Assembly (NCBI GenBank): GCA_002694685.1
Contig: NZMW01000006.1
Coordinates: 1-36,614, forward strand
From: Balneola sp.
GTDB lineage: Bacteria; Bacteroidota; Rhodothermia; Balneolales; Balneolaceae
Direction: 5' to 3'
Length of the DNA stretch: 36,614 bases
Position 1 is the stretch's first letter. Each line of letters begins with the position of its first letter. This document shows positions 24,167 through 36,614 of the stretch, piece by piece. Under the pieces are notes generated by a model, which searched no databases, was not told where the DNA came from, and saw only the letters and a program-made list of their open reading frames with translations. The translations under genes and the position numbers were made by a program.

Positions 24167-27100
24167 TTACTTAACCATCATCATTTTCTTAGTGGCGGTG
24201 TAAAATTTACCAGACTGTGACTGCACATTCAGTACGTAAATGTACATTCCCGAGGCATATCGGGAGGCATCCCAGTTCACTTTATAGTATCCCGCGCGGA
24301 TGCTGTTCTCATTCAGCAACGTTTCAATTTTACGTCCGAGGATGTCATACACCGTCAGACTCACTTTCGCTTGTTCCGCCAGTTCATAGTGAATACTTGT
24401 AGACGGGTTAAACGGATTCGGATAGTTCTGTGAAAGTGTGAACGTTTCCGGAAGATCTTCACGAACCTGAACAGCTTTCATCGCTGTCTGTTGTAGTGAT
24501 GGCTGATTTCTGGCACGAATATCAGAGCTGATGACCATCTCGGAGTCTTCATCACTGAGGGCACTAAAAGTTACAGAAACCATATCTCGGTCGGTAATAG
24601 AAGAAAGCGTTCCAAAGTTTGCGATGTTCAGCGTAAGGATACCGTTGGCAGTATCGGCATGAGAAAGAAATACATTCGCATTCTCACTATGAATATCAAA
24701 TAGACCGCGGTCTTCAACACCTTCGAGTGTAAGCTTGTCCTCATCATAATCGATAATTAATGACAAGCCTTCCACACTGTCAGGGTGGGAGAGGCTAAAG
24801 TCATAGGTGACTTCCCGCTTTGCTTGCGATGGATTGGTTACATATTCAGCTTGAGTCTCCACTTTTTTATAACTGATGAAAGTCAGCGAATCAGCAAAGA
24901 TTTCATCCATTAACTCTTTGGAAGCTGAGCTTGGGCCTGTTGCAGTCTTGTTAATGTCTGAGGTACCATCTAGCTCATTCCGCCCATTAGTTTGGCGAGA
25001 AGTTGTTCGAGCGGTGGTATTAGTTCCGTTGAATGATTTTCTCAAAGCCGCAAAGGAGTTTGCTTTGGCTGCTTTATTACGTTCCTGGGTTAGGTTCCAG
25101 TAGCGAATAAAGGCGACGATGTCATCAACGTTGAAGTTATTATCAGGAGCTAAGCGTGCATATGGGAATGAGCTTGAGCTAAAGTCCAAAGGACCTGTCT
25201 CAAAACTAAAGTTATCACTTCTCCACCCGTTGCCAAAGCTGACGAGGTCAGTCAGGTTGACTTCAAAATCAGCGGTGAAATCTCCAATCATGGTTGTGTA
25301 GAAATCCTGAGAAGCGAATACATCATCTGAACTAGTTTGCTGTCCATCATCATCAGTATCGATGAAATATTGTCCGCCACTGTTATCCGAAACAACCTGT
25401 GAAGACACTTCAACAGAGAGAGTATCTAATGCATAAAAACTCATGTTTTCGACCAGCAATTCATTTCCTGAAATGGAGAGGTCCCCAACAGGCAATGATT
25501 CTCCTGTTCTTGTAGTGATAGTTATGGCTCCCGAGAAGAAGTCAGTAAAGTTGGGAATGCTGTTGATACCGTTTGAAGAGTTAAAAAAGAGTGAAAAACC
25601 CTGATTTACCCTAATAATGTTATTACTTCCAGCATCCAGTCTTGTGATCTGAAGCGGATTAATGGTGAAGTTTCTAAACAAACCAATCTGAGAAGATGAA
25701 TTTGATCTGTACGCTACATCAAGTCTTCCATTTCCATCCATGTCTGTGGCAACAACTCGGTCTATACTCGTGCTGCTTGAACCCAGATTGTTGGAAGATG
25801 AAAAACTACCATTTCCAGTATTCCGGAACCAAAATGCTTCTCGGGTATTTGGAGATGAAGTGATGATATCTTTAAGTCCATCTCCATCCAGATCAGCTAT
25901 AGCAACGTCAGATGCGCCGCTAATTCCACTACCGCCTGTAATGGTGGTGAATGAACCTTGACTATCAGAATTAATCAGAACTTCAATAAGATCGTCATCT
26001 GAAGAAGCGTAAATAAGATCAAGATCACCATCGTTGTCTAAATCACTACCTATGACTTTCTCAGGGAAATTAATACCGGTAAGAGTGGTTTCGGTGAAGC
26101 TGCCATCGCCATTATTATAGTAGGCGGCAATTATATTCCGTCCCTGTATTGCAGCAACAACATCAACGAGCCTGTCTCCATTGAAATCCCCGGCGTAAAT
26201 AGATCGAATGTTTCCGGCAGAGCTGGCAACAATGTTTTCTGCTCCAAAGGATACTGAAGAATTAACGCTCGTATTCTCATACCAGCTGATTTTGCCATCA
26301 TTACTTGAAGAGATTATGACATCCTCATATCCGTCATCATTAATGTCGGCTGAAGCAATATCTGTAATACCGGAGTGGCTTACCGTAATAGATGTAAGGT
26401 CTAAGAAAGAAGACCGATTTGTGCTGCCATTATTCTTAAGCACATGAAAGACGTTATCCTGATAAGAAGTAAACACAAAATCAGGATAGTCCGTACCAAA
26501 GATGCTGGTAGGTTTGATGATATTTGGGTCAATCGAGCTGCCTAAGTTTATATTTCTTAGCTGGCTGTAAGGGTTGGAGCCATCAGAATAATAAAGGCCA
26601 ATTTGGTTCAAGTCCGGTCTTGTTACCACCAAATCTTCTAAACCGTCACTGTCTAAGTCAGCACTTGCTATACTACCTGTACCACCTCCACCACCGGCTG
26701 TTTCGGTTGGTGAAGAAAAGGTTCCGTCATTCTCAGTGAGTAACCTGAAAGGTGCTGGATAATTATAGTTAATACCGTTTGTTGTGATCGAAATATCAGT
26801 TGTTCCAGACAAGCCCGATGGAACTTCAACTGTAACCAGATTAGGATACGTATCGATGACGTTCGCCGAGGTGTTACCAAAGTTAACGGTTGTGCTTCCT
26901 GAAATTCCGACCCCGGAAATTCGGATAATATTGCCTGCGACACCGGCTAAAGGCTCAATGTTCGCTATTTGAGTAGAAATAGCTTTTATAGCTACACTGT
27001 CAGATCGGGTTTGAGTTCCGTTATCGTCAACAGAAGCAACGCGGTAGTAATAAGTGACAGCATTGGTGATGTCATTGTCTGTAAAGGATGTTTCCGTTTG

Positions 27101-30100
27101 AACACCATTTGATACAGACACGTAATTATCTACAGGCTCAACACTACGATAGATCTCATATCCTTGTAAATCAGTGTCGCTGTTTGCATCCCAATTCAGT
27201 ATCACGCTTCCAATATCTCGAGAAGCCGTGATACCGGTTGGAGCGTCTGGCGGGGGGTCAACATTGTTGATCTGTAAAATAGAATTGGATGTATAGTCAC
27301 TGGCAAGGATATCTAAATCACCGTCGCCGTTAAGATCAGAAATAGCAAGAGCTCTGATTTCTCCCGCACCGGTAACTAAGTATTCAGCAGCACTAAAGTT
27401 CTCAGAACCTAAATTTCTATACAACACTACATCGCCATTAAGAGTACCAACAACAACTTCGAGTAATCCATCACCATTAAGATCACCTACTGCTGCAGTA
27501 GTCGGATCAATTAGGTCCTCAGAAATAATTTTCTGAGTTGAGAAAGAACCAGAACCGGCATTGTTTGAGTACCAGGCTACTTTAGAATCTGTTTGAGATA
27601 TGGTCAGGAGGTCTACATCACTGTCACCATCAATATTGCCGGCTATAACATTTCTTGGCAGATCAAAAGAAGAAGTAATTAATGTTCGTCCTCCAAATGA
27701 ACTTCCATTATTCGGATAGTAAACCAGCTGATCGGTTCCTTCAAGTGTTGCAATAATTTCAAATCGACCATCTTCATTGATATCAACTCCAGCGATATCA
27801 TTTACGAGCGGGGCATTTGAATCAACCGTTACTTGCGTTGTGAAATTTCCAGTTCCATCATTCTGATAAAGGAAAATATCGTCTGTAATTCTGCTAGAGT
27901 GTATAAGATCAATATCGCCATCTCCATCAGCATCAAAGGCAAGAAGTGATTGTTCAGAATAATCATTACCTACACGTTCAGGGAAAGATTGAACGGTGCT
28001 GGTAGAAACTAATCCAAAAGATCCATCTCCGTTGTTTGAATACCAGATTAAAGATCGATCATAAACAGCAGCTATATCAATCAGGGTATCTCCATCAAAA
28101 TCTGCATAGACAACATCTCTGGCTCCGAGGTTGCCTTCATTACCGATGCTCTGAACTCCTGAAAAGCTTCCATCTCCTTGATTAGCTAAGGAAATTAGAT
28201 TCTCACCGGCAGATTGATTGTAGAGTGAAGCCAGAATATCGTTATCAAGATCAGAATCTAAATCAATGGCTCTCAGCGTAGTTGCTCCCAAAATACCGGA
28301 AGGTAAAATTGAGTTTGCTTCCTGGAAGAATCCACTTTCGCCAGCTGTTGTTTCGAGTACGGTAAATAAATCTGGGAGAGGCAAGAATATTGTACCACTA
28401 ACAGTAACCAGAACTTCGTGATTACCGGGAGTAATACTTGGTACTGTTACCACAATTTGATTTGGCAATTGGGTAACAACAGGTGCGTCAATTTCACCAA
28501 TGTCAACAAGTACAGAACCTGCTGTAGTAGGTAAGTTAGTACCATAGATAGTTATAGAGGTACCTGCATCAGCGGCTGTTGTGTTGATGCCATAAACAGA
28601 AATGATATCAAAACCACTTGTGGCTTCATTACTGAGGTCGCTTTGGATATTTAAATCAGAACTGTAAGTAGCAATCCGGTAATAATAGCGGGTATTTGCC
28701 TGAACATTACTGTCAACAAAAGAAGTACCCGTCAATAATGATGGATTTATTTTAGTTGCTGAAGTAGAATCTGTAAAAGGCTCTGTGGCTCTATAAATAT
28801 TATATCCTGAAGCATTGACAGATAAACTCTGATCCCAACTCAGGTTAATAGATGAAGCTGCTTCATTAGCTACCACATTTGAAGGAGGGGAGACCGATAA
28901 ATCAATGATGTCAGTCTGATTAATAGGCTCAAGGCGATAATCACCAACCTCCCCTTCGCTTACAATACCTTCAAAGGCAAATGTTTCAGGAATTTCAGTG
29001 CCGAGTATATTCGTAAATAGGGGGCCTGAAGCGTATAGAAAGCTATTTTGATTAAGAATATCAGATTCATAAAGATCATATGATGTGAATTCCCGGAAAG
29101 TTGAACCGGTACTGTCGGTTGATAAGTCATTAATGCGAACTAATACCGACTCATAGGTTTCAGATACATCATCAAGAGTGATCGTTATAGGATCAGGTAA
29201 AGTATTTCCGGTAGAAAGAGAGGTGTATTCCTGAATATTTACGATTTCCATGAGTCCGCCAAATTCAGATCTCTGTCCTAAAATTTCTAAGGAATCACCT
29301 TCCTGAATATTCTGGCCAAAAACTACATCATTAAAATCTGCTGCTCGATAAACATGCAGGCCAGCAGAACCATCCTGTAATTTGAAGATATTGTCTGTAC
29401 GGCGGGTTACAATACCACGCACCCGAATATAAGAGCCTTTAGTCGTCAACCGAGCATCTGCAATTGATGAAAGATTTACACTAAGAGTACCCGTGTTTTC
29501 GTACCAGGCTATTTTATCGTCAAGGCGGGAGGCAGAGAGTACATCCAGATCGCCGTCACTGTCGAGGTCGGCGGCATATACGGTATTGGCACCATCAGCA
29601 AGGGTAGAAATAATGGTTTGAGCGCCAAAGGTGCCGTCCCCGTTATTTTCGTACCAGGCAATTTTATCGTCAAGGCTGGAGGCAGAGAGCACATCCAGGT
29701 CGCCGTCGCCGTCGAGGTCTATAGCATATACGCTTTGGGCACCGTCAGCAAAGGTAGAAATAATGGTTTGAGCGCCAAAAGTACCGTCGCCATTATTTTG
29801 GTACCAAGCAATTTTGTCGTCAAAGAAAGACGCGGATAGCACGTCTTGGTCTCCATCGCCGTCAAGGTCAGCCGCATATACACTTCTGCCACTACTGGTG
29901 AGGGTAGAAATAGTGGTTTGAGCGCCAAAGGTGCCGTCGCCGTTATTTTCGTACCAGGCAATTTTGTCGTCTGATTTAGAAGCAGAGAGTACATCTATAT
30001 CACCGTCATTGTCTAGGTCTATCGCATATACGCTTTCAGCACCGTCAGCGAGGGTAGAAATAACGGTTTGAGAGGCGAAGGTACCGTCGCCATTATTTTG

Positions 30101-33100
30101 GTACCAGGCAATTTTGTCGTCAAAGCTAGAAGCGGATAACACGTCTTGGTCTCCGTCGCCGTCGAGGTCAGCCGCATAAACGCTACTAGGCCCGTTAGCA
30201 AGGGTAGAAATAACGGTTTGAGTGCCAAAAGTACCGTCGCCATTATTTTGGTACCAGGCAATTTTGTCATCAGTGTAGGAAGCAGAGATTACGTCCAGAT
30301 CGCCATCACCATCGAGGTCGGTTGCAAATACGCTATAAGCTGCATCTCCAAGTGTAGAAATAACAGATTGAGTGGCAAAGTTAGCGGAAATAGGTTGGAG
30401 TGAAGTAAAATTACCCGCATAAGTCTCTGAGAAAGAGTTAGCTGTAACTGAGACCTCTGCATTTCCGGGGCTAACAGCTGGGACCGTTACGACCAATTTA
30501 GTTGCTGAAGCTTCTACAACATCTGCTGAAAAGCCTCCAATGGAAACCGCATTTGATGTTGGGTTTGAATCAAATCCTTTACCATAAATAGTAATATTAG
30601 TTCCAGGCGCAGCCGCTTCAGGGAATACTTTTGATATAGCAAAATTCAATCCTGCGGCTATATCTTCTTCATAGGTAGGGGTTAGTTGGTAACCGCCGTT
30701 AGCTGACGCGGTTGCTAAGGTTGACTGACGTAAAACACCTACGTAGTTAAACAGACTAGGTATCTCAACACCATCTAATTCATTCTGTATTGCCCCGCCA
30801 ATCCTCATAGTAGAAGGATAGGTAACTCCATCTTGGATAAGGTCGTATGAAGTGTCGTTTGTAAAAGTACCCGAGCTAGGCGTGGAAATATTTGTGATCT
30901 TTACCAATTCAGATTCATATTCTTCTCCCAAATCAGCAAGAGTTATCTCCTGTGGTTCAGGTAACGCGTTATTACGTGACGGTACAGAGAAATCCGTAAC
31001 ATTATCAAATTCTAAAAGACTATTAAATTCGGTAAGCTGTCCTGTAACAATCAGGGAATCTCCTGCAACGATATCACCATTAATTATTGCAGTATCAATA
31101 GCTGAAGCTGATGGAGCAAAAACATGCAGCCCAGAATTTCCATCTTGGATAGAAATGTTATTTCCTAATACTCTTGTAACTACCCCTTTTGTTTTCAGGG
31201 TGGTACCTAATGAAGCATTCCGTACATCAGCAATAGGGGTGACAGGTAAATTACCAATGAACTCAATATCGTCCCAATAATAAGTCTGTTCTCCGGCATC
31301 GGCTCCGGTTGTTCCAAAGTTGATTGCAGAAGTGCCATCTAAATGATTACTAAAGTCAAAATACAAGGTTTCCCACCCACCGGATGTTGTAGTATTTACT
31401 TGAGTCTCAACACTAATATTTATATCAGAGGTATTTTCTGCTTTAAGCAAAATTGGGATGCCGGCAGCCGGAGACCAAACTCTTACACTCATTAGTGTAT
31501 TACCGGAGGAGAAAGGGATAGCTTCAGCCAGGTCCATAGTGGTTCCGGCTATATTTTCTGCAAGCTGACTTCGTACAGTTTCAGCTACTAAATTTGAAGA
31601 GTTCTCTGGGTCCTGAACAACACGTGAGGAATTTCCACCAAAATCTATGAAGTCGTAAAAAACGCCGCTGTCGTCAAAAGTGATTGGGAGACTTGGAGTA
31701 ACTAATGGAATTCCTGTGTTTTCATACCAGGAAATCTCATCATTGAATTCGGAGGCAGTGAGTACATCTAAGTCGCCATCTCCATCCAGGTCGGCAGCTA
31801 TTACTGTATTAGCTCCATCAGCTAAGTCGGTAATTATTTGTTGGCTTCCAAAGGTTCCGTCTCCAAAGCTTTCATACCAGGCAATTTTGTCGTCGAAAGT
31901 AGAAGCTGATAGAACATCTTGATCACCGTCCCCATCCAAATCAGCTGTATAAACACTAGCTGCTCCATCAGCAATGTTTGAGATGATATTCTGATTAGAA
32001 AAAGTCCCGTCTCCAAAGTTTTCATACCAGGCAATACGGTCATCATTTATAGAGCTGGAAAGTATATCCATGTCTCCATCATTGTCTAAATCTGAGGCAA
32101 ATACATCAGTTGCTACATCTCCACCACCAATATTTGTACTCGCTGCAAAAGTGCCATCTCCGTTATTTGGGTACCATGCAATTTCGACACCAGAGGCAGC
32201 GGAAATCACGTCTAAATCACCGTCATTATCTAGATCGGCTGTGTAAACATTTTGTGGCTGTGTTGCAGAGGTAGATATGTTAACTGCCGGTGCAAAAGTA
32301 GCATCCCCAAAGTTTTCATACCAGTCAATCCTATTGTCGAAAAGAGAAGTGATTAATATGTCTACATCACCATCACCGTCAATATCTGCCGTATGCAAAC
32401 CATTTAAGCCACTATAAAAACCAGAAGAGAGTATAGTTTCTGTGAAGAAGTTTCCTGCTCCATCATTTTCATACCAAACAAGTTGGTTGTTGGCTGTTGT
32501 ATAAACGACATCAAGGTCACCATCTCCATCAAAGTCTGCTGCACGTACCTTTCTTGCATCGCTGGCATTGATGGTAATCAAAGATTCAGAACCAAAGGTG
32601 CCATCCCCATTGTTAGCAAACCAAGAAATGGTGTTGTCAATACCGGAAGCTGTTAAAACATCCTGATCGCCGTCTCCGTCCAAATCGGCAGGGTATACAT
32701 CAAATGCAGCATCACTGGAATTTGTGATCAGGTTCTGGCTTCCAAAAGAAGCATTTGTTTGATCCAGAACCGTAAATAAATCAGGGTAGGTGTATTCTCC
32801 AATGATGGTGGAGAGAGTTAAGTCATAATTACCAGGGGATAAATTCTCATTGACCTGAAAAGTCATTTTGTTATCTGACTGAGCAAGGTTGAACCAATAA
32901 TATCCTGTATCACCAAAATAAACTCGGTTTGATATGTTCTCTGTGGTGAGCCCGCTACCATATAAATTAATTACCTGTCCTTTCGCTGAAGCTACAGGCT
33001 CAACTTTGGTTATACGGGCCAGTGATCCATCAGCATTAAAAATTGAGATATTATCTACGAATGCTGCATCAATCCCTGCAGAATTACTTCCATCTTTGGA

Positions 33101-33676
33101 ATACCAAAAGTCAATTTCTCTGACTCCTTCGCTTAGGGAGTATAAACCACTCTGTGTCCAGGGAATCTCTCCGGATTCATCTAAAATTCGATTACCATCC
33201 ACTTCAACATGCAAGTAATCCCAGCCTGGTTCTGAACTTACTTTATATCTAAACTGAAGGTCACCACCTCCGGGAGCTACCTTTACAAAGAATTTGATAT
33301 TAACCGCCTCAGAATCGTTAATATCGGGGCTCATTAGGCTATAGCTATCTAAGTAGGTAGTATCAATAGCTTGAACAATTTGGAAGTAGTTGTTTACATT
33401 TGCAACAGTATCACCTGGTTGACCAGTATCAAACCTAAGAAATCCGGGTTCGCCAGAGAAGTAAGTGCCATTTGGGTATCCTGCTTCAAAGTCGTAGGTA
33501 AGGTCATAGAGTAGTGAATTATCAAGACTGGCAGGTGCTTTTTTCTGGCTCTGCTCCAAGTTTTTGAATCTTGGGTCCTGCTCGACTTTGATATTCCTAT
33601 CTTGTGATACAGCCTGCCCCATAGCAACGCTGGAAAAAAGGAGAAGAAAACCTAAACTTTTAATTGTGTACTTCAT
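24167..33676 (-). CDS. Giant multidomain surface protein: TIG/FG-GAP propellers, dockerin- and cohesin-like ends, T9SS tail
   Basis: The frame opens at TTG 33766, overlapping the previous gene, but ATG at 33676 starts a signal peptide (MKYTIKSLGFLLLFSSVAMG), giving 3169 residues. Approximate order: MAM/jelly-roll-like N-domain (30-215); IPT/TIG 1 (222-305); FG-GAP/VCBS propeller 1, seven DxDxDG units (307-657); carbohydrate-binding-like domain (665-810); OB-fold 1 (812-1012); TIG 2; propeller 2, six units (1099-1395); OB-fold 2 (1399-1592); FN3; TIG 3; propeller 3, seven units (1784-2137); FN3; TIG 4; propeller 4, seven units (2320-2667); Ig-like domain; dockerin-like segment (2794-2862); cohesin-like domain (2929-3065); T9SS type A tail (NYPNPFNPSTSIHYEL). 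No enzyme domain is seen. It is probably a Ca-dependent surface adhesin or scaffold, last gene of an operon with the cohesin lipoprotein and PEGA genes. Confidence 0.9.
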   Translation of the reverse strand: MKYTIKSLGFLLLFSSVAMGQAVSQDRNIKVEQDPRFKNLEQSQKKAPASLDNSLLYDLTYDFEAGYPNGTYFSGEPGFLRFDTGQPGDTVANVNNYFQIVQAIDTTYLDSYSLMSPDINDSEAVNIKFFVKVAPGGGDLQFRYKVSSEPGWDYLHVEVDGNRILDESGEIPWTQSGLYSLSEGVREIDFWYSKDGSNSAGIDAAFVDNISIFNADGSLARITKVEPVASAKGQVINLYGSGLTTENISNRVYFGDTGYYWFNLAQSDNKMTFQVNENLSPGNYDLTLSTIIGEYTYPDLFTVLDQTNASFGSQNLITNSSDAAFDVYPADLDGDGDQDVLTASGIDNTISWFANNGDGTFGSESLITINASDARKVRAADFDGDGDLDVVYTTANNQLVWYENDGAGNFFTETILSSGFYSGLNGLHTADIDGDGDVDILITSLFDNRIDWYENFGDATFAPAVNISTSATQPQNVYTADLDNDGDLDVISAASGVEIAWYPNNGDGTFAASTNIGGGDVATDVFASDLDNDGDMDILSSSINDDRIAWYENFGDGTFSNQNIISNIADGAASVYTADLDGDGDQDVLSASTFDDKIAWYESFGDGTFGSQQIITDLADGANTVIAADLDGDGDLDVLTASEFNDEISWYENTGIPLVTPSLPITFDDSGVFYDFIDFGGNSSRVVQDPENSSNLVAETVRSQLAENIAGTTMDLAEAIPFSSGNTLMSVRVWSPAAGIPILLKAENTSDINISVETQVNTTTSGGWETLYFDFSNHLDGTSAINFGTTGADAGEQTYYWDDIEFIGNLPVTPIADVRNASLGTTLKTKGVVTRVLGNNISIQDGNSGLHVFAPSASAIDTAIINGDIVAGDSLIVTGQLTEFNSLLEFDNVTDFSVPSRNNALPEPQEITLADLGEEYESELVKITNISTPSSGTFTNDTSYDLIQDGVTYPSTMRIGGAIQNELDGVEIPSLFNYVGVLRQSTLATASANGGYQLTPTYEEDIAAGLNFAISKVFPEAAAPGTNITIYGKGFDSNPTSNAVSIGGFSADVVEASATKLVVTVPAVSPGNAEVSVTANSFSETYAGNFTSLQPISANFATQSVISTLGDAAYSVFATDLDGDGDLDVISASYTDDKIAWYQNNGDGTFGTQTVISTLANGPSSVYAADLDGDGDQDVLSASSFDDKIAWYQNNGDGTFASQTVISTLADGAESVYAIDLDNDGDIDVLSASKSDDKIAWYENNGDGTFGAQTTISTLTSSGRSVYAADLDGDGDQDVLSASFFDDKIAWYQNNGDGTFGAQTIISTFADGAQSVYAIDLDGDGDLDVLSASSLDDKIAWYENNGDGTFGAQTIISTLADGANTVYAADLDSDGDLDVLSASRLDDKIAWYENTGTLSVNLSSIADARLTTKGSYIRVRGIVTRRTDNIFKLQDGSAGLHVYRAADFNDVVFGQNIQEGDSLEILGQRSEFGGLMEIVNIQEYTSLSTGNTLPDPITITLDDVSETYESVLVRINDLSTDSTGSTFREFTSYDLYESDILNQNSFLYASGPLFTNILGTEIPETFAFEGIVSEGEVGDYRLEPINQTDIIDLSVSPPSNVVANEAASSINLSWDQSLSVNASGYNIYRATEPFTDSTSATKINPSLLTGTSFVDSNVQANTRYYYRIATYSSDLNIQSDLSNEATSGFDIISVYGINTTAADAGTSITIYGTNLPTTAGSVLVDIGEIDAPVVTQLPNQIVVTVPSITPGNHEVLVTVSGTIFLPLPDLFTVLETTAGESGFFQEANSILPSGILGATTLRAIDLDSDLDNDILASLYNQSAGENLISLANQGDGSFSGVQSIGNEGNLGARDVVYADFDGDTLIDIAAVYDRSLIWYSNNGDGSFGLVSTSTVQSFPERVGNDYSEQSLLAFDADGDGDIDLIHSSRITDDIFLYQNDGTGNFTTQVTVDSNAPLVNDIAGVDINEDGRFEIIATLEGTDQLVYYPNNGSSFGGRTLITSSFDLPRNVIAGNIDGDSDVDLLTISQTDSKVAWYSNNAGSGSFSTQKIISEDLIDPTTAAVGDLNGDGLLEVVVGTLNGDVVLYRNLGSENFSAAEYLVTGAGEIRALAISDLNGDGDLDILASDYTSNSILQINNVDPPPDAPTGITASRDIGSVILNWDANSDTDLQGYEIYRSVEPVDNYVSVSNGVQTETSFTDNDITNAVTYYYRVASVDDNGTQTRSDSVAIKAISTQIANIEPLAGVAGNIIRISGVGISGSTTVNFGNTSANVIDTYPNLVTVEVPSGLSGTTDISITTNGINYNYPAPFRLLTENDGTFSSPTETAGGGGGTGSIASADLDSDGLEDLVVTRPDLNQIGLYYSDGSNPYSQLRNINLGSSIDPNIIKPTSIFGTDYPDFVFTSYQDNVFHVLKNNGSTNRSSFLDLTSITVSHSGITDIASADINDDGYEDVIISSSNDGKISWYENTSVNSSVSFGAENIVASSAGNIRSIYAGDFNGDRLVDVVAAIQGRNIIAAYYNNGDGSFTETTLTGINFPEKVIGSDLDNDGDLDLIYASSDDDLIEVLINSDSQGSFTTITGGSGISGASDVAIADLDGDGLKDIITSSPNTREAFWFRNTGNGSFSSSNNLGSSSTSIDRVVATDMDGNGRLDVAYRSNSSSQIGLFRNFTINPLQITRLDAGSNNIIRVNQGFSLFFNSSNGINSIPNFTDFFSGAITITTRTGESLPVGDLSISGNELLVENMSFYALDTLSVEVSSQVVSDNSGGQYFIDTDDDGQQTSSDDVFASQDFYTTMIGDFTADFEVNLTDLVSFGNGWRSDNFSFETGPLDFSSSSFPYARLAPDNNFNVDDIVAFIRYWNLTQERNKAAKANSFAALRKSFNGTNTTARTTSRQTNGRNELDGTSDINKTATGPSSASKELMDEIFADSLTFISYKKVETQAEYVTNPSQAKREVTYDFSLSHPDSVEGLSLIIDYDEDKLTLEGVEDRGLFDIHSENANVFLSHADTANGILTLNIANFGTLSSITDRDMVSVTFSALSDEDSEMVISSDIRARNQPSLQQTAMKAVQVREDLPETFTLSQNYPNPFNPSTSIHYELAEQAKVSLTVYDILGRKIETLLNENSIRAGYYKVNWDASRYASGMYIYVLNVQSQSGKFYTATKKMMMVK
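24480..24890 (-). other. Cohesin-like domain of the giant protein
   Basis: Within the giant protein, the stretch starting REVTYDFSLSHPDSVEGLSL, with IIDYDEDKLTLEGVEDRG, and later NGILTLNIANFGTL and MVSVTFSALSDE, has the strand pattern of cohesin-type jelly rolls (x-G-L-x-h-x-h-x-Y-D-x-x-x-L). It sits directly before the T9SS sorting domain. Assignment is by pattern only. Confidence 0.6.
25095..25295 (-). other. Dockerin-like segment of the giant protein
   Basis: Two F-hand-like repeats are visible. The first, GDFTADFEVNLTDLVSFGNG, has Ca-ligand positions D1, T3, D5, N9 and D12 as in type I dockerins. The second, LAPDNNFNVDDIVAFIRYW, keeps D5, N9 and D12 but lacks acidic residues at positions 1 and 3. 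The linker between them is longer than usual. Assignment is by pattern only. Confidence 0.6.
25675..26715 (-). repeat. FG-GAP/VCBS propeller block 4 (seven units, divergent)
   Basis: Seven units of about 50 residues with loops such as ADLDSDGLED, ADINDDGYED, GDFNGDRLVD, SDLDNDGDLD, ADLDGDGLKD and TDMDGNGRLD. The second unit (FGTDYPDF) has lost the calcium loop. Units are divergent in DNA, unlike block 2. Confidence 0.8.
27265..28325 (-). repeat. FG-GAP/VCBS propeller block 3 (seven units, divergent)
   Basis: Seven units with loops IDLDSDLDND, ADFDGDTLID, FDADGDGDID, VDINEDGRFE, GNIDGDSDVD, GDLNGDGLLE and SDLNGDGDLD, flanked by TIG 3 and the second FN3 domain. The count matches a seven-bladed propeller. 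Confidence 0.8.
29490..30380 (-). repeat. Exact-period 150-bp tandem array (propeller block 2, six units)
   Basis: The same DNA words recur every 150 bases: the G-T-x-C-C-G-T-C box begins at 29631, 29781, 29931, 30081 and 30231. Each unit encodes 50 residues of the form ISTLADGAxSVYAADLDGDG, then DxDVLSASxxDDKIAWYxNN and GDGTFGAQT. The units are nearly identical in DNA, whereas those of the other three blocks have diverged, indicating recent duplication or gene conversion here. Confidence 0.93.
31705..32755 (-). repeat. FG-GAP/VCBS propeller block 1 (seven units)
   Basis: Seven units with loops ADLDGDGDQD, ADFDGDGDLD, ADIDGDGDVD, ADLDNDGDLD, SDLDNDGDMD, ADLDGDGDQD and ADLDGDGDLD, each followed by a [V/I]-x-x-A/S-S run and a W-Y-x-N-x-G-D-G-T-F end. 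It follows TIG 1. The last two units resemble those of block 2 most. Confidence 0.82.
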
Positions 33677-33734
33677 TGAACGTGGATTTAAAACTGATAG
33701 AAAATATGTGTCGATAAAGAGTATAAAATTTTGA

Positions 33735-34664
33735 CTAGTTCTGGACAGTCGCCCCATGGAATTCAAGGATATCTATGTTGTTTCCAACCGAGGTTCTTAA
33801 CTGAGAGTTACTCGAAATACTAATAGATGCTCCTCCTGAAAAGCTGGAAGTGGGGGAGAATGTGATTTCACAAACCTTACCGCCACCGCTTAGTGGAGAA
33901 GTATTACCCGCAATTCCAGCATCAATAGTTATAAAGCTTGCAGAAACTTCGGGCTCAACATATATAAGAGTGTTGGATCCGTCAGGGTTTAAAAAGCTTC
34001 CTTCTGAATCAAAAACCTGCACATTTGAAACTGTCAAACTTGAACTAGGATAATTAACCACCAACGAAAAAGCTGTTAAGTCATCCGACTCTTCAATTTC
34101 ATCAAGGTAAATTTCAGCAGTAAATGTTCCATCGGTGTTGCTTGTAATGGTAACAGGGTTAAATAAGAATCCACGGCTTTGAAATGCGTCTACTGCAAAA
34201 AATCCGGTAAAAGAAGTATCAGCGGTTACTCCCTCATTACTGTAAGAGGCCTGAAGCTCAAATGAATACTGATTTCCTTCAAAAGTTTCTTTAAGGTTTG
34301 TAAGGGTAAAAGACCGATCAAAAGCATCAACATCAACAAAGTCACCGGCTGATATTGTTTGACCCGGTTCAGCATAAGCGAAACGAAACGAATATCTGGA
34401 GTAGTCAACGGTTTGGTTAACTAGTTCCCATGAGATGGTCTCATTATTTTCGTCAAAAGTAAAAACAGTACCTAAAGAAGTTCCGTCATTTGCAAGCTGT
34501 AGATCGGGAAACGCAAATGGATTATATCTAGGATCGTTGGGGTTTGACCTTTCATCTTCCGGGTTTTCAGGTAGTTCATTAATTCCATCGATAATTCCAT
34601 CACAACTGGTGGCAATAAAAATTGCGCCTAATAAAGCGAGGAGGCTGAAATATTTTTTCGACAT
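33735..34664 (-). CDS. Lipoprotein with cohesin-like domain
   Basis: An ATG at 34688 is possible, but ATG at 34664 starts directly at the signal peptide MSKKYFSLLALLGAIFIATS with the lipobox cysteine next, and has an A-rich leader, so I use it (309 residues). After a Pro/Asn-rich spacer (about 22-48) comes an FN3-like domain (about 50-155) and then a C-terminal cohesin-like jelly roll (about 165-309). In the latter FTAEIYLDEIEESDDLTAFS, LVVNYPSSSLTVSNVQVFD and GKVCEITFSPTSSFSGG match the cohesin strand pattern. The giant protein's gene starts 58 bases downstream; the PEGA gene ends 28 bases upstream. A lipid-anchored cohesin beside a dockerin-bearing T9SS cargo suggests it could anchor the giant at the cell surface; this is inference. 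Confidence 0.78.
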   Translation of the reverse strand: MSKKYFSLLALLGAIFIATSCDGIIDGINELPENPEDERSNPNDPRYNPFAFPDLQLANDGTSLGTVFTFDENNETISWELVNQTVDYSRYSFRFAYAEPGQTISAGDFVDVDAFDRSFTLTNLKETFEGNQYSFELQASYSNEGVTADTSFTGFFAVDAFQSRGFLFNPVTITSNTDGTFTAEIYLDEIEESDDLTAFSLVVNYPSSSLTVSNVQVFDSEGSFLNPDGSNTLIYVEPEVSASFITIDAGIAGNTSPLSGGGKVCEITFSPTSSFSGGASISISSNSQLRTSVGNNIDILEFHGATVQN

Positions 34665-34692
34665 ATGTTTTTTTATTGGATAGTCCATAATT

Positions 34693-36614
34693 CTAAAAAT
34701 TTACCTTCATGCTAATTCCGGAATTCTGTGCATTAAATTCCAGCTTGGCTTGCTCAAACTTTTTCTTGTTTGAAGGCTGAAGTAAGAGGTCAAAAATTTC
34801 AATTCCTTTAACGGCTAAATAGGCAGTTATTCCAAGCTTGAGACCATCTAAAGCTGTTTGGGCATTATTATATTCTTGAACATAAGCGGCTTCAAGTTCA
34901 ACGAAATTTTGTTGTGCAGTATTATATTCATTTAAGGCCGTTTGGTATTTATCGTAAGAAGAACCATAATCCAAGTAGGACTTTACGGAATACCCAATGG
35001 CACCAGCTCCTGCAAGGAAGTACAAAAATCCTCTGCCCTTACCTAGATATCCATGCCCAACACCGGGAAAAACAGCTCCCGGTAAAATAGAACGCCAGAC
35101 AGCTTTCCCTTTGCTCCGAGGGTTATATTCATCAACAAAAGTAACTTCCTGCGATAAGGAGTTTACTTGTATTCTTTGCTCAATATCATCGAATCCATCT
35201 TTCTCAATTTTGATCTCATACTGTCCGAAAGGTATGGAAGGAAGTTGCAGCGGTAATTCTGTATATGTTCTTGAAAAGCCCGGTCCTTTTAACTCAAGCT
35301 CTGCATCTTCGAATAAGCTATTTATAGTTAAACTGCCGCGTCCTTCAACTCTGTTTAAATCAAAATTAATAGTTTTATCGTCGTTTCGAAGAATCTCGAT
35401 TTGCTCTGTCTTTTGGTCGAAATTCTGGAGATCACCCGTCAGAGAGTAATTCCCAACAGGGAGGTCTCGTATGGTTCGCGGCCCAACCCATTCTTCAACG
35501 ATGTTGCCATTCTGTCTAAGTGTAAACTCCACATTTTCTTGTTGAGCGATTACAAAAAGGTTTCCTGTAATCTGTCCAAGGGAAACATTCTCAACTAAAG
35601 TATCCCCTAAATTCACAGTAAAAGTCCGGCTTACAGCATCAAAACCCGAAGAACGAACTTCAAGGCTGTGTACTCCGGGAACAAGTTCAATATTTTCTGT
35701 AGAGCTTTGAGGCACATCATCAACTAAAACAGTAGCGGTGCTGGGTGTGGCGTTAACAGTGAGATATCCGACATACTTTTGGAGATTATAGTTAAGCTCT
35801 CGGTTTTCACTTGTTAAAACGAGCTCATCTTCTACGTTTGAATAGCCGGGTAGTGTTAACCTGACCTTTAAGTCTCCAGGATAAAGCAATATTCGCTGAG
35901 GTGTTTGTCCACTGGACCCTGGACTGTCATTAATATAGATTGAAGCTCCCTCAGGTTCAGAACTTATCAATACAGGAACTGGGTTAATCTTGTTTAGTGA
36001 AAATTGAAAAGAGTTTACGCGGTCGGCTGAAACGGTGATAGAATCATCCCGAAATTCATACTGATCTTTCCGTACCTGGATAAAGTGTTTACCGGTTGTT
36101 AATTCCGTATTAAAAACAGTTCCGTCAATTTCGCTAGGTTCACCATCAATAATGATACGGCTGTTTTCCGGAGTTACAGTAAACTGAACGGGTTCAGTAG
36201 TGGATTTTTGATTACCGGTAATTTGTATTTCCCAGACTTCGCCAGCGGCTAAGTTTATGCCCTCATCATTTAGAACAAGCTGGAAAGGAGGGAATCCTTC
36301 TTTAAAAATTTGAACTACTCGTTCGTTTGTGGATAGATATAGGAGGTTATAACCCGGTAACTGCTGAATTTTACTAATTCCGTTATTTGACCTGAATGTC
36401 AAACCAGTAAGGTCTGATACAATTCTCAAACCGGCAGTTAGATTTCCGTTTATATCTCTATTATCATCCCTGTCAGCAATAATCTCACCTGAGACCTTAT
36501 TAGCTGAACCTACAACACGCATGGTTGCTAGCTCATCATCAGCTTCTTGGGCGTTAAGGTTGTTAAGTGGAAATATCCCAAATGTCAGGAAAAGAAAAAT
36601 TGGGAGTAGTAACA
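34693..36614 (-). CDS. PEGA-repeat protein with C-terminal membrane region (5'-partial)
   Basis: The first in-window ATG is at 36522, but the frame is open to the window edge and reads LLLPIFLFLTFGIFPL, then NNLNAQ, a signal peptide; the true start is outside. About 640 residues are visible. At least four PEGA-type beta domains follow one another, with VTPENSRIIIDGEPSEIDGT, SSEPEGASIYINDSPGSSGQ, NATPSTATVLVDDVPQSSTE and a later pair around GPRTIRDLPVGNYSL and LPSIPFGQYEIKIEKDGFDD. The C-terminal 150 residues (ILPGAVFPGVGHGYLGKGRG, FLYFLAGAGAIGYSV, then a Gln/Asn/Ala-rich coil and a second hydrophobic stretch) resemble the DUF5683-type end of Bacteroidetes proteins. PEGA domains often bind cell-wall or surface structures. 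It precedes the cohesin lipoprotein by 28 bases. Confidence 0.82.
   Translation of the reverse strand, partial: LLLPIFLFLTFGIFPLNNLNAQEADDELATMRVVGSANKVSGEIIADRDDNRDINGNLTAGLRIVSDLTGLTFRSNNGISKIQQLPGYNLLYLSTNERVVQIFKEGFPPFQLVLNDEGINLAAGEVWEIQITGNQKSTTEPVQFTVTPENSRIIIDGEPSEIDGTVFNTELTTGKHFIQVRKDQYEFRDDSITVSADRVNSFQFSLNKINPVPVLISSEPEGASIYINDSPGSSGQTPQRILLYPGDLKVRLTLPGYSNVEDELVLTSENRELNYNLQKYVGYLTVNATPSTATVLVDDVPQSSTENIELVPGVHSLEVRSSGFDAVSRTFTVNLGDTLVENVSLGQITGNLFVIAQQENVEFTLRQNGNIVEEWVGPRTIRDLPVGNYSLTGDLQNFDQKTEQIEILRNDDKTINFDLNRVEGRGSLTINSLFEDAELELKGPGFSRTYTELPLQLPSIPFGQYEIKIEKDGFDDIEQRIQVNSLSQEVTFVDEYNPRSKGKAVWRSILPGAVFPGVGHGYLGKGRGFLYFLAGAGAIGYSVKSYLDYGSSYDKYQTALNEYNTAQQNFVELEAAYVQEYNNAQTALDGLKLGITAYLAVKGIEIFDLLLQPSNKKKFEQAKLEFNAQNSGISMKVNF

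Follow-up and report, generated by a model that had tools for sequence, protein, structure and literature searches.

A candidate cohesin-dockerin pair joining a giant T9SS cargo protein to a neighbouring lipoprotein in Balneola sp.

Clostridial anchoring scaffoldins, with their type II cohesins and X-dockerins, offer a parallel: a large protein attaches through its dockerin to a cohesin that is itself anchored. Anchoring there is by SLH or sortase, and the cargo is cellulosomal. Away from cellulosomes, AfuCoh76 and AfuDoc75 of Archaeoglobus fulgidus are described as a non-cellulosomal pair that binds (PMC9705933), and a non-cellulosomal surface use has been proposed for the dockerin and cohesin proteins of ANME archaea (PMC9012536). 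In Ca. Stygibacter (Cloacimonadota) a large scaffoldin-like protein carrying a T9SS-type CTD for surface attachment bears the cohesins, and dockerins occur on other secreted proteins; tandem cohesins, CBMs, and dockerins on hydrolases and peptidases are described, and the authors read the system as cellulosome-like (PMC8542988). Cohesin/dockerin proteins outside cellulosomes are already known, and so are cohesins on proteins with T9SS-type tails.

The window, that is, the whole 36,614-nucleotide stretch analysed here, is contig C6 of the assembly and repeats the sequence of C13:134133-170935; the two differ by 2 mismatches and, within the giant gene, by two in-frame gaps of 150 and 39 bp. Two separate gene copies in the assembly were considered and rejected, as C6 repeats C13; given this near-identity, the copies stand for a single locus, or for two versions of it that differ in repeat number. 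An earlier note on this DNA had described three adjacent minus-strand genes, for a PEGA protein, a lipoprotein and a giant T9SS cargo, and both the ORFs and their domain content confirm the trio:

24167..33676, minus strand: giant T9SS cargo, 3169 aa from ATG
24170..24424, minus strand: type A T9SS C-terminal sorting domain of the giant (Pfam, TIGR04183)
24452..24892, minus strand: cohesin-like domain belonging to the giant itself (segment residues 257-403; Pfam and predicted fold)
25094..25291, minus strand: predicted dockerin domain of the giant, 66 aa (family profile); first Ca-loop-like motif complete, second without the first acidic position
25659..32743 (approximate; span from translation), minus strand: the giant's TIG and fn3 domains, together with its FG-GAP propeller repeats in 25 stretches (Pfam)
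33735..34688, minus strand: predicted lipoprotein, 317 aa, with invariant cysteine 29
33738..34181, minus strand: the lipoprotein's cohesin (residues 170-317; predicted fold, family profile)
34191..34511, minus strand: fn3-like domain of the lipoprotein
34693..36614, minus strand: PEGA-repeat protein, 5' end lost at the contig end; complete copy at L008:15514-17496

The giant ORF spans 24167-33766(-) and, counted from an opening TTG, has 3199 codons; codon 31 is an ATG with a signal-peptide-like stretch behind it, and a start at this ATG matches the 3169 residues given earlier. The assignment of the third gene stands as well, with Pfam PEGA at 7.5e-32; its complete copy, on C13, has 660 aa. 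In several relatives the PEGA protein is fused to a caspase-like peptidase domain. Neither the window lipoprotein nor the PEGA protein falls in an NCBIfam family above cut-off.

Pfam models scoring above their cut-offs on the giant are FG-GAP_3, TIG, FG-GAP, fn3, the propeller model BBS7 and Por_Secre_tail, and from the FG-GAP/TIG/fn3 content we infer a possible adhesion or matrix role. Its proposed status as type A T9SS cargo is upheld by the sorting domain (TIGR04183, 34.5 bits against a cut-off of 23) and by the SprA translocon encoded in its own genome (SprA_N, 1.3e-97), where 63 distinct genes carry T9SS tails. Just before this tail a second cohesin-like domain had been suspected. Against a cut-off of 24.1 bits, Pfam Cohesin scores 21.4 when the whole protein is searched, 25.2 for the dockerin-cohesin segment and 28.8 in the genome search. 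In the comparison with the predicted fold, cohesins fill the first 36 rows (Z 10.6-12.4), and other Ig-like adhesins follow closely at 10.4; the suspicion is borne out by the segment score and the fold, though with a small margin over other Ig-like folds.

In the lipoprotein, cysteine 29 follows a hydrophobic helix and is invariant in 13/13 lipoproteins of alignment A10, the window's included, and from this helix and cysteine the protein is classed as a predicted lipoprotein. In the AF2 model the 34 best PDB rows for the C-terminal domain are all cohesins (Z 12.8-15.9, 2.3-3.0 A), the next row lying at 10.5. Among the matches of the cohesin profile A11 are scaffoldin cohesins (1.6e-11) and 2xdh, from A. 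fulgidus (1.1e-5). Judged by predicted fold and family profile, this domain is a cohesin, as had been claimed, though Pfam Cohesin (PF00963) left the window lipoprotein unmatched; the same model matches 7/13 of the A10 lipoproteins at E<=1 (best 1.4e-5).

The dockerin-like segment, placed at 25095-25295 in the earlier note, is now put at 25094-25291. Pfam Dockerin_1 (PF00404) did not match the window giant in whole-protein, segment or C-terminus searches; among 24 giant C-termini, 10 are matched at E<=10, the best of them with 3.4e-4. Since Pfam, applied to single proteins, is blind to the window dockerin as well as to the cohesin of the lipoprotein, profiles made from relatives were needed. 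With the dockerin profile A12, 15 PDB sequences came up at E values to 10; 14 of the 15 are dockerins, the best at 0.0037 (2mte, 1daq, 2jnk and 4fl4_A are taken by us to be dockerins), and by this family profile the segment is a predicted dockerin. A first profile, A5, was set aside: its 10 PDB matches were led by the unrelated 5il7 (0.044) and included 6 dockerins, at E 0.23-0.69. The small profiles A1 and A6 gave no relevant match among PDB sequences. A placement of the domains outside the cohesin and dockerin families, which the earlier note had named as refuting, was not observed, with the reserve that Pfam misses the window dockerin and that the fold comparison of the giant effectively covered its cohesin-like domain. 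The model of the giant segment has helices at 136-148 and 178-194 (block pLDDT 86-92); no dockerin chain appeared among its fold-search rows, the comparison having effectively covered residues 257-403 only.

Dockerin calcium loops follow the motif D-x-N/T-x-D-x-x-x-N-x-x-D. Loop 1 of the window dockerin fits it; loop 2 has positions 5, 9 and 12 without position 1, and this apparent degeneracy counts against docking, as does the lack of a Dockerin_1 match in the window giant. The degenerate loop also favours an unlikely reading, in which the domains are cohesins and dockerins by descent only and now serve as structural spacers, the lipoprotein being linked for some other reason, such as a T9SS accessory role. 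The slight lead of the giant's cohesin over other Ig-like folds points the same way, while two observations argue against spacers: all 20 A12 dockerins share D15, W23, P34, P43, D57, F61 and W65 without exception, and lipoprotein and giant co-occur as described below.

Within the organism's own family (92 genomes) the lipoprotein is found in 7 and the dockerin-cohesin giant in 6, all six within the seven, and the gene trio is retained in 6/92. In another class, that of genome G193, the lipoprotein occurs in 16/245 sampled genomes, the giant in 16/245 and both in 14/245 (each at E<=1e-20); two genomes have the giant and, at that threshold, no lipoprotein (G424, G538), two the lipoprotein and no giant (G150, G521), and one lipoprotein of this class, in G491, is a fragment at a contig end. 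The samples of 394 and 245 genomes are subsets of larger groups, and the counts leave aside 38 further genomes of the 245 with lipoprotein matches between 1e-4 and 1e-20 and partial model cover, as well as 9 weaker giant rows (E 1e-5 to 1e-8). Alignment A10 was built from lipoproteins first noticed next to giants; without the six genomes of this class that feed it, 10 genomes carry the lipoprotein (E<=1e-20), 8 of them with a giant. Fisher values for co-occurrence are 6e-19 and 1e-8, which overstate independence, since the genomes are related and six of the 14 belong to one genus. A lack of joint conservation in relatives, which the earlier note had named as refuting, was not observed: the genes are kept together across genera and families.

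The 26 giants comprise 20 matches at E<=1e-20 from the other class and the six from the own family. Fifteen adjoin a lipoprotein gene (one of these one gene away), 2 lie apart and 9 are cut by contig ends; a cut giant was scored positive if its visible side has the lipoprotein, and for three linked giants (L058, L065, L067) the verdict comes from a single flank. The two apart despite visible flanks are in G100, where the lipoprotein is 8 kb off, and at G495:C7; G495 and G530 each have two giants against one lipoprotein match. These two unlinked giants, and the four genomes named above with one partner only, count against docking. It is the gene linkage that points the proposed docking to the lipoprotein, and we put at roughly 0.62 the probability that the window encodes a non-cellulosomal cohesin-dockerin docking pair on T9SS, the giant's dockerin binding the cohesin of the neighbouring lipoprotein.

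A cellulosome, or another multi-enzyme complex, is suggested by the presence of cohesins and dockerins and is highly improbable. Two dockerin genes were found in the own genome, the giant's and, on C10, that of an S8 protease, each adjoining a cohesin gene; no glycoside hydrolase is among these dockerin carriers. The A11 search of this genome at E<=1 gave three distinct cohesin sites in three proteins, so one cohesin per protein and no scaffoldin with several, in agreement with the earlier view that this is not a cellulosome. Weak PF00404 matches at C10:307946, C2:257730 and C4:579265 (E 0.26-1.5) were taken as chance.

All 26 giants have both a dockerin and a cohesin-like domain, in a constant order of dockerin, cohesin and tail. 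One possibility, raised in the earlier note and somewhat doubtful though compatible with docking, is that one giant's cohesin holds the dockerin of another, in a chain starting on the lipoprotein. Among 17 giant-bearing genomes searched with Dockerin_1 at E<=0.05, 7 gave no match (G026, G029, G010, G354, G480, G465, G100), so that there the giant's dockerin may be the sole one on offer, but the model misses most giant-type dockerins and cannot prove absence, and G354 and G480 each carry two dockerin giants. The 10 with matches, the own genome included (in G323 one of the two is the giant's own), may offer the giant's cohesin another client. One dockerin would moreover have to serve two different cohesins, and the dockerin of a cellulosomal scaffoldin is not known to bind that scaffoldin's own cohesins. 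An equally tentative idea, likewise compatible with docking, is that the dockerin folds onto the cohesin within the same chain, perhaps keeping that cohesin closed until export, and is later passed to the lipoprotein. The constant domain order and linkers of 15 to 86 residues across the 26 giants would permit this, though fold-back alone leaves the linked lipoprotein unexplained. Mirror-tree correlations over 15 pairs (dockerin against cis cohesin 0.93, lipoprotein cohesin 0.92, tail 0.85 and lipoprotein N part 0.85) do not tell the two cohesins apart; a subset of distant pairs was set aside, selection on tail distance by itself lowering the tail value.

In the docking that we favour, the giant's dockerin would, once T9SS has exported the protein, bind the neighbouring lipoprotein's cohesin, probably with calcium, and the putative surface lipoprotein would hold the giant on the outer membrane, besides or after the handling of the sorting tail; the tail by itself could anchor the giant, though the lipoprotein probably pins it to the cell. 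The PEGA protein is a third conserved partner. The giant's own cohesin may bind a dockerin too, either the one in the same chain or one on a second copy or a different protein, or may act as a spacer before the tail. A broader scheme, possible but still on the doubtful side, would be a widespread and so far undescribed mode of surface docking in T9SS bacteria, with a distinct dockerin subfamily on propeller or Ig-rich giants and fn3-cohesin lipoproteins from the same operons giving a reversible, calcium-dependent second anchor, chains being possible and a PEGA or caspase-PEGA partner frequent.

No paper on a cohesin-lipoprotein/dockerin-giant operon was found in the open-access library searched, and to our knowledge the surface retention of giant T9SS proteins has been little studied beyond Porphyromonas and Flavobacterium. 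The linked cohesin lipoprotein offers a concrete case in which a putative non-covalent T9SS anchor can be probed with purified domains; it would extend cohesin-dockerin use well away from cellulose, may yield a new orthogonal binding pair, and could open the unexplained part played by the recurrent PEGA or caspase-PEGA neighbour. Compared with the clostridial scaffoldins, the window giant has an Ig-like domain before its dockerin, presumably as in X-Doc. The A. fulgidus pair resembles it in being non-cellulosomal, and both window cohesins match 2xdh; 75 and 76 are reportedly neighbouring genes, one product bearing both modules. We know of no T9SS, fn3-cohesin lipoprotein or FG-GAP giant in that archaeon. 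The ANME proteins differ in their link to S-layer proteins and substrate-binding proteins and in that several cohesins occur on some of them (PMC9012536), and in contrast to Ca. Stygibacter the window system has one cohesin per protein, a predicted lipoprotein receptor and a propeller giant.

The final 12.4 kb of the window carries three minus-strand genes:

34693-36614, minus strand: PEGA protein, truncated by the contig end
33735-34688, minus strand: lipoprotein, 317 aa
24167-33676, minus strand: T9SS cargo, 3169 aa (the giant)

The window, 1-36614, is contig C6 of a genome (G000; 3.95 Mb, 17 contigs, 99.7% complete) that repeats it whole at positions 134133-170935 of contig C13, with 2 mismatches; the giant on C13 has one additional 150-bp FG-GAP repeat and 39 bp more. 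This duplication is either assembly redundancy or repeat-number variation, and the two copies, on C6 and C13, are counted here as one locus. The earlier note's description of a three-gene locus with cohesin and dockerin parts is borne out by sequence, fold and family comparison.

Pfam finds 25 FG-GAP_3, 4 TIG and 2 fn3 stretches in the giant, and no catalytic domain over the cut-off anywhere in the protein; there follow a weakly modelled Ig-like stretch, the dockerin, a linker, a cohesin-like domain and a T9SS type A tail. The Pfam Cohesin model reaches its cut-off on the dockerin-cohesin segment (25.2 bits) and stays below it on the whole giant (21.4 bits). For the predicted fold of residues 257-403 of that segment the best 36 matches are all cohesins (Z 10.6-12.4), with other Ig-like adhesins next at Z 10.4, so that the margin for this cohesin by fold alone is small. 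The orthologous giant of a relative (G035:C4:187616-203458) is an open frame of 5280 codons.

In the lipoprotein a cysteine, invariant in all 13 sequences of our lipoprotein profile, closes a hydrophobic helix; an fn3 domain comes next, and the cohesin is C-terminal. The top 34 matches of its model (pLDDT 82) are cohesin entries at Z 12.8-15.9, clearly set off from the one below them at 10.5. The full profile matches cohesins 3l8q (0.0017), 5lxv_A and 2xdh (0.02) as well as many fn3 domains, and a cohesin-only profile matches 3l8q at 1.6e-11. Pfam detects the cohesin in 7 of the 13 members, the window's own lipoprotein giving no match.

The window's dockerin likewise has no Pfam match; among relatives, Dockerin_1 appears at E<=10 in 10 of 24 giant C-termini (best 3.4e-4). 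Searched against PDB sequences, a profile of 20 giant dockerins gave 15 matches up to E 10 (best 0.0037), 14 of them dockerins. D15, W23, P34, P43, D57, F61 and W65 are invariant in all 20. The two tryptophans, together with a D-I-x-P-x-x-G-x-x-P link that is often present, set this dockerin apart as a separate subfamily, here named "W-type".

In the window's own family (92 genomes) the lipoprotein occurs in 7 genomes and the dockerin-cohesin giant in 6 of those 7, all 6 keeping the order PEGA-lipoprotein-giant; in the seventh (G028; L028:1850-4411) the lipoprotein is followed by a giant's start at the contig end, and a CHASE2-cyclase gene stands on its other side in place of PEGA. The giant's segment was found in 10 of 394 genomes of a phylum sample, and in 23 of 245 genomes sampled from another class, that of G193, at E<=1e-4. 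At E<=1e-20 that class sample has the giant in 16 genomes and the lipoprotein in 16 (counting G491, a fragment at a contig end). Both occur in 14, spread over six families besides the window's own, with six of the 14 in one genus; G424 and G538 have only the giant, G150 and G521 only the lipoprotein.

A lipoprotein lies near 15 of 26 W-type giants, adjoining in 14 and one gene away in L086. Two have none adjoining (L052 of G100, where it lies 8 kb downstream, and L091 of G495:C7), and for nine the contig ends, with no lipoprotein on the visible side. PEGA adjoins the lipoprotein in 10 of the 13 loci with that side visible (not G028, G193 or G323). Six of these PEGA proteins have no caspase domain (G000, G023, G029, G026, G035, G354) and four do (G010, G515, G556, G480), the fusions lying at:

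L027:15101-17689, fusion of PEGA with a peptidase domain of caspase-like (C14) type
L086:3045-5819, the same fusion
L088:16653-18392, the same fusion
L090:9841-12204, the same fusion

The fusion in L088 is followed by a second caspase gene. Two more conserved genes lie upstream of the trio's PEGA (L023-L026; C13:171245-174708): one product has about 637 aa and an end that is NTF2-like (Cds6_C, narrowly under cut-off), the other has 513 aa, in which Pfam finds nothing at E 0.01.

In the class of G193, loci whose dockerins are weaker and more ordinary again have a cohesin protein as neighbour, directly adjoining in G468, G524, G489 and G469 and one gene off in G442; in G357 (L093:4630-12908) three tandem dockerin-plus-tail genes adjoin one cohesin-plus-tail gene, and G478 has the cohesin neighbour, the dockerin profile giving no score there. 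The window's genome has one W-type dockerin and one further dockerin, over cut-off with its two halves together, in an S8 protease on C10 that also has a cohesin-like stretch and a T9SS tail. The adjoining 1324-aa T9SS protein (the pair spans C10:4370-11426) has a cohesin by the cohesin-only profile (1.2e-6; no Pfam match), whose other sites in this genome are the lipoprotein and the giant. Both dockerin genes found in this genome thus adjoin a cohesin gene. By these searches, three of its T9SS-tail genes (65 matches, 63 without the C6/C13 duplicates) carry a dockerin or cohesin.

The giant would be exported by the T9SS, whose tail it carries and whose translocon protein SprA is present in the genome. 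Its dockerin would then bind the cohesin of the neighbouring lipoprotein, tying the giant to the membrane, as linkage, fold and the precedent of a non-cellulosomal pair that binds in A. fulgidus (PMC9705933) suggest. The proposed non-cellulosomal docking on a lipid-anchored cohesin, the central idea of the earlier note, is well supported by these comparisons. The giant's own cohesin might hold the dockerin of another copy, giving a chain, a hypothesis that we regard as rather unlikely; that the dockerin folds back onto the cohesin of its own chain is a proposal of the same probability. Either is compatible with the lipoprotein anchor. At E<=0.05, 7 of 17 giant-bearing genomes have no Dockerin_1 match, a count bounded by that model's missing most W-type dockerins, and there the giant's own dockerin, in cis or from another copy, may be the sole partner; the other 10 have 1-6 matches each, so that other clients are possible in them.

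A search of open-access literature returned no recognisable description of a PEGA-lipoprotein-giant operon, nor does one appear in passages of PMC10266427 and PMC8810776. Non-cellulosomal cohesin and dockerin proteins are known from bacteria and archaea (PMC9012536), and Cloacimonadota have, according to PMC8542988, a cohesin scaffoldin bearing a surface-attachment CTD.
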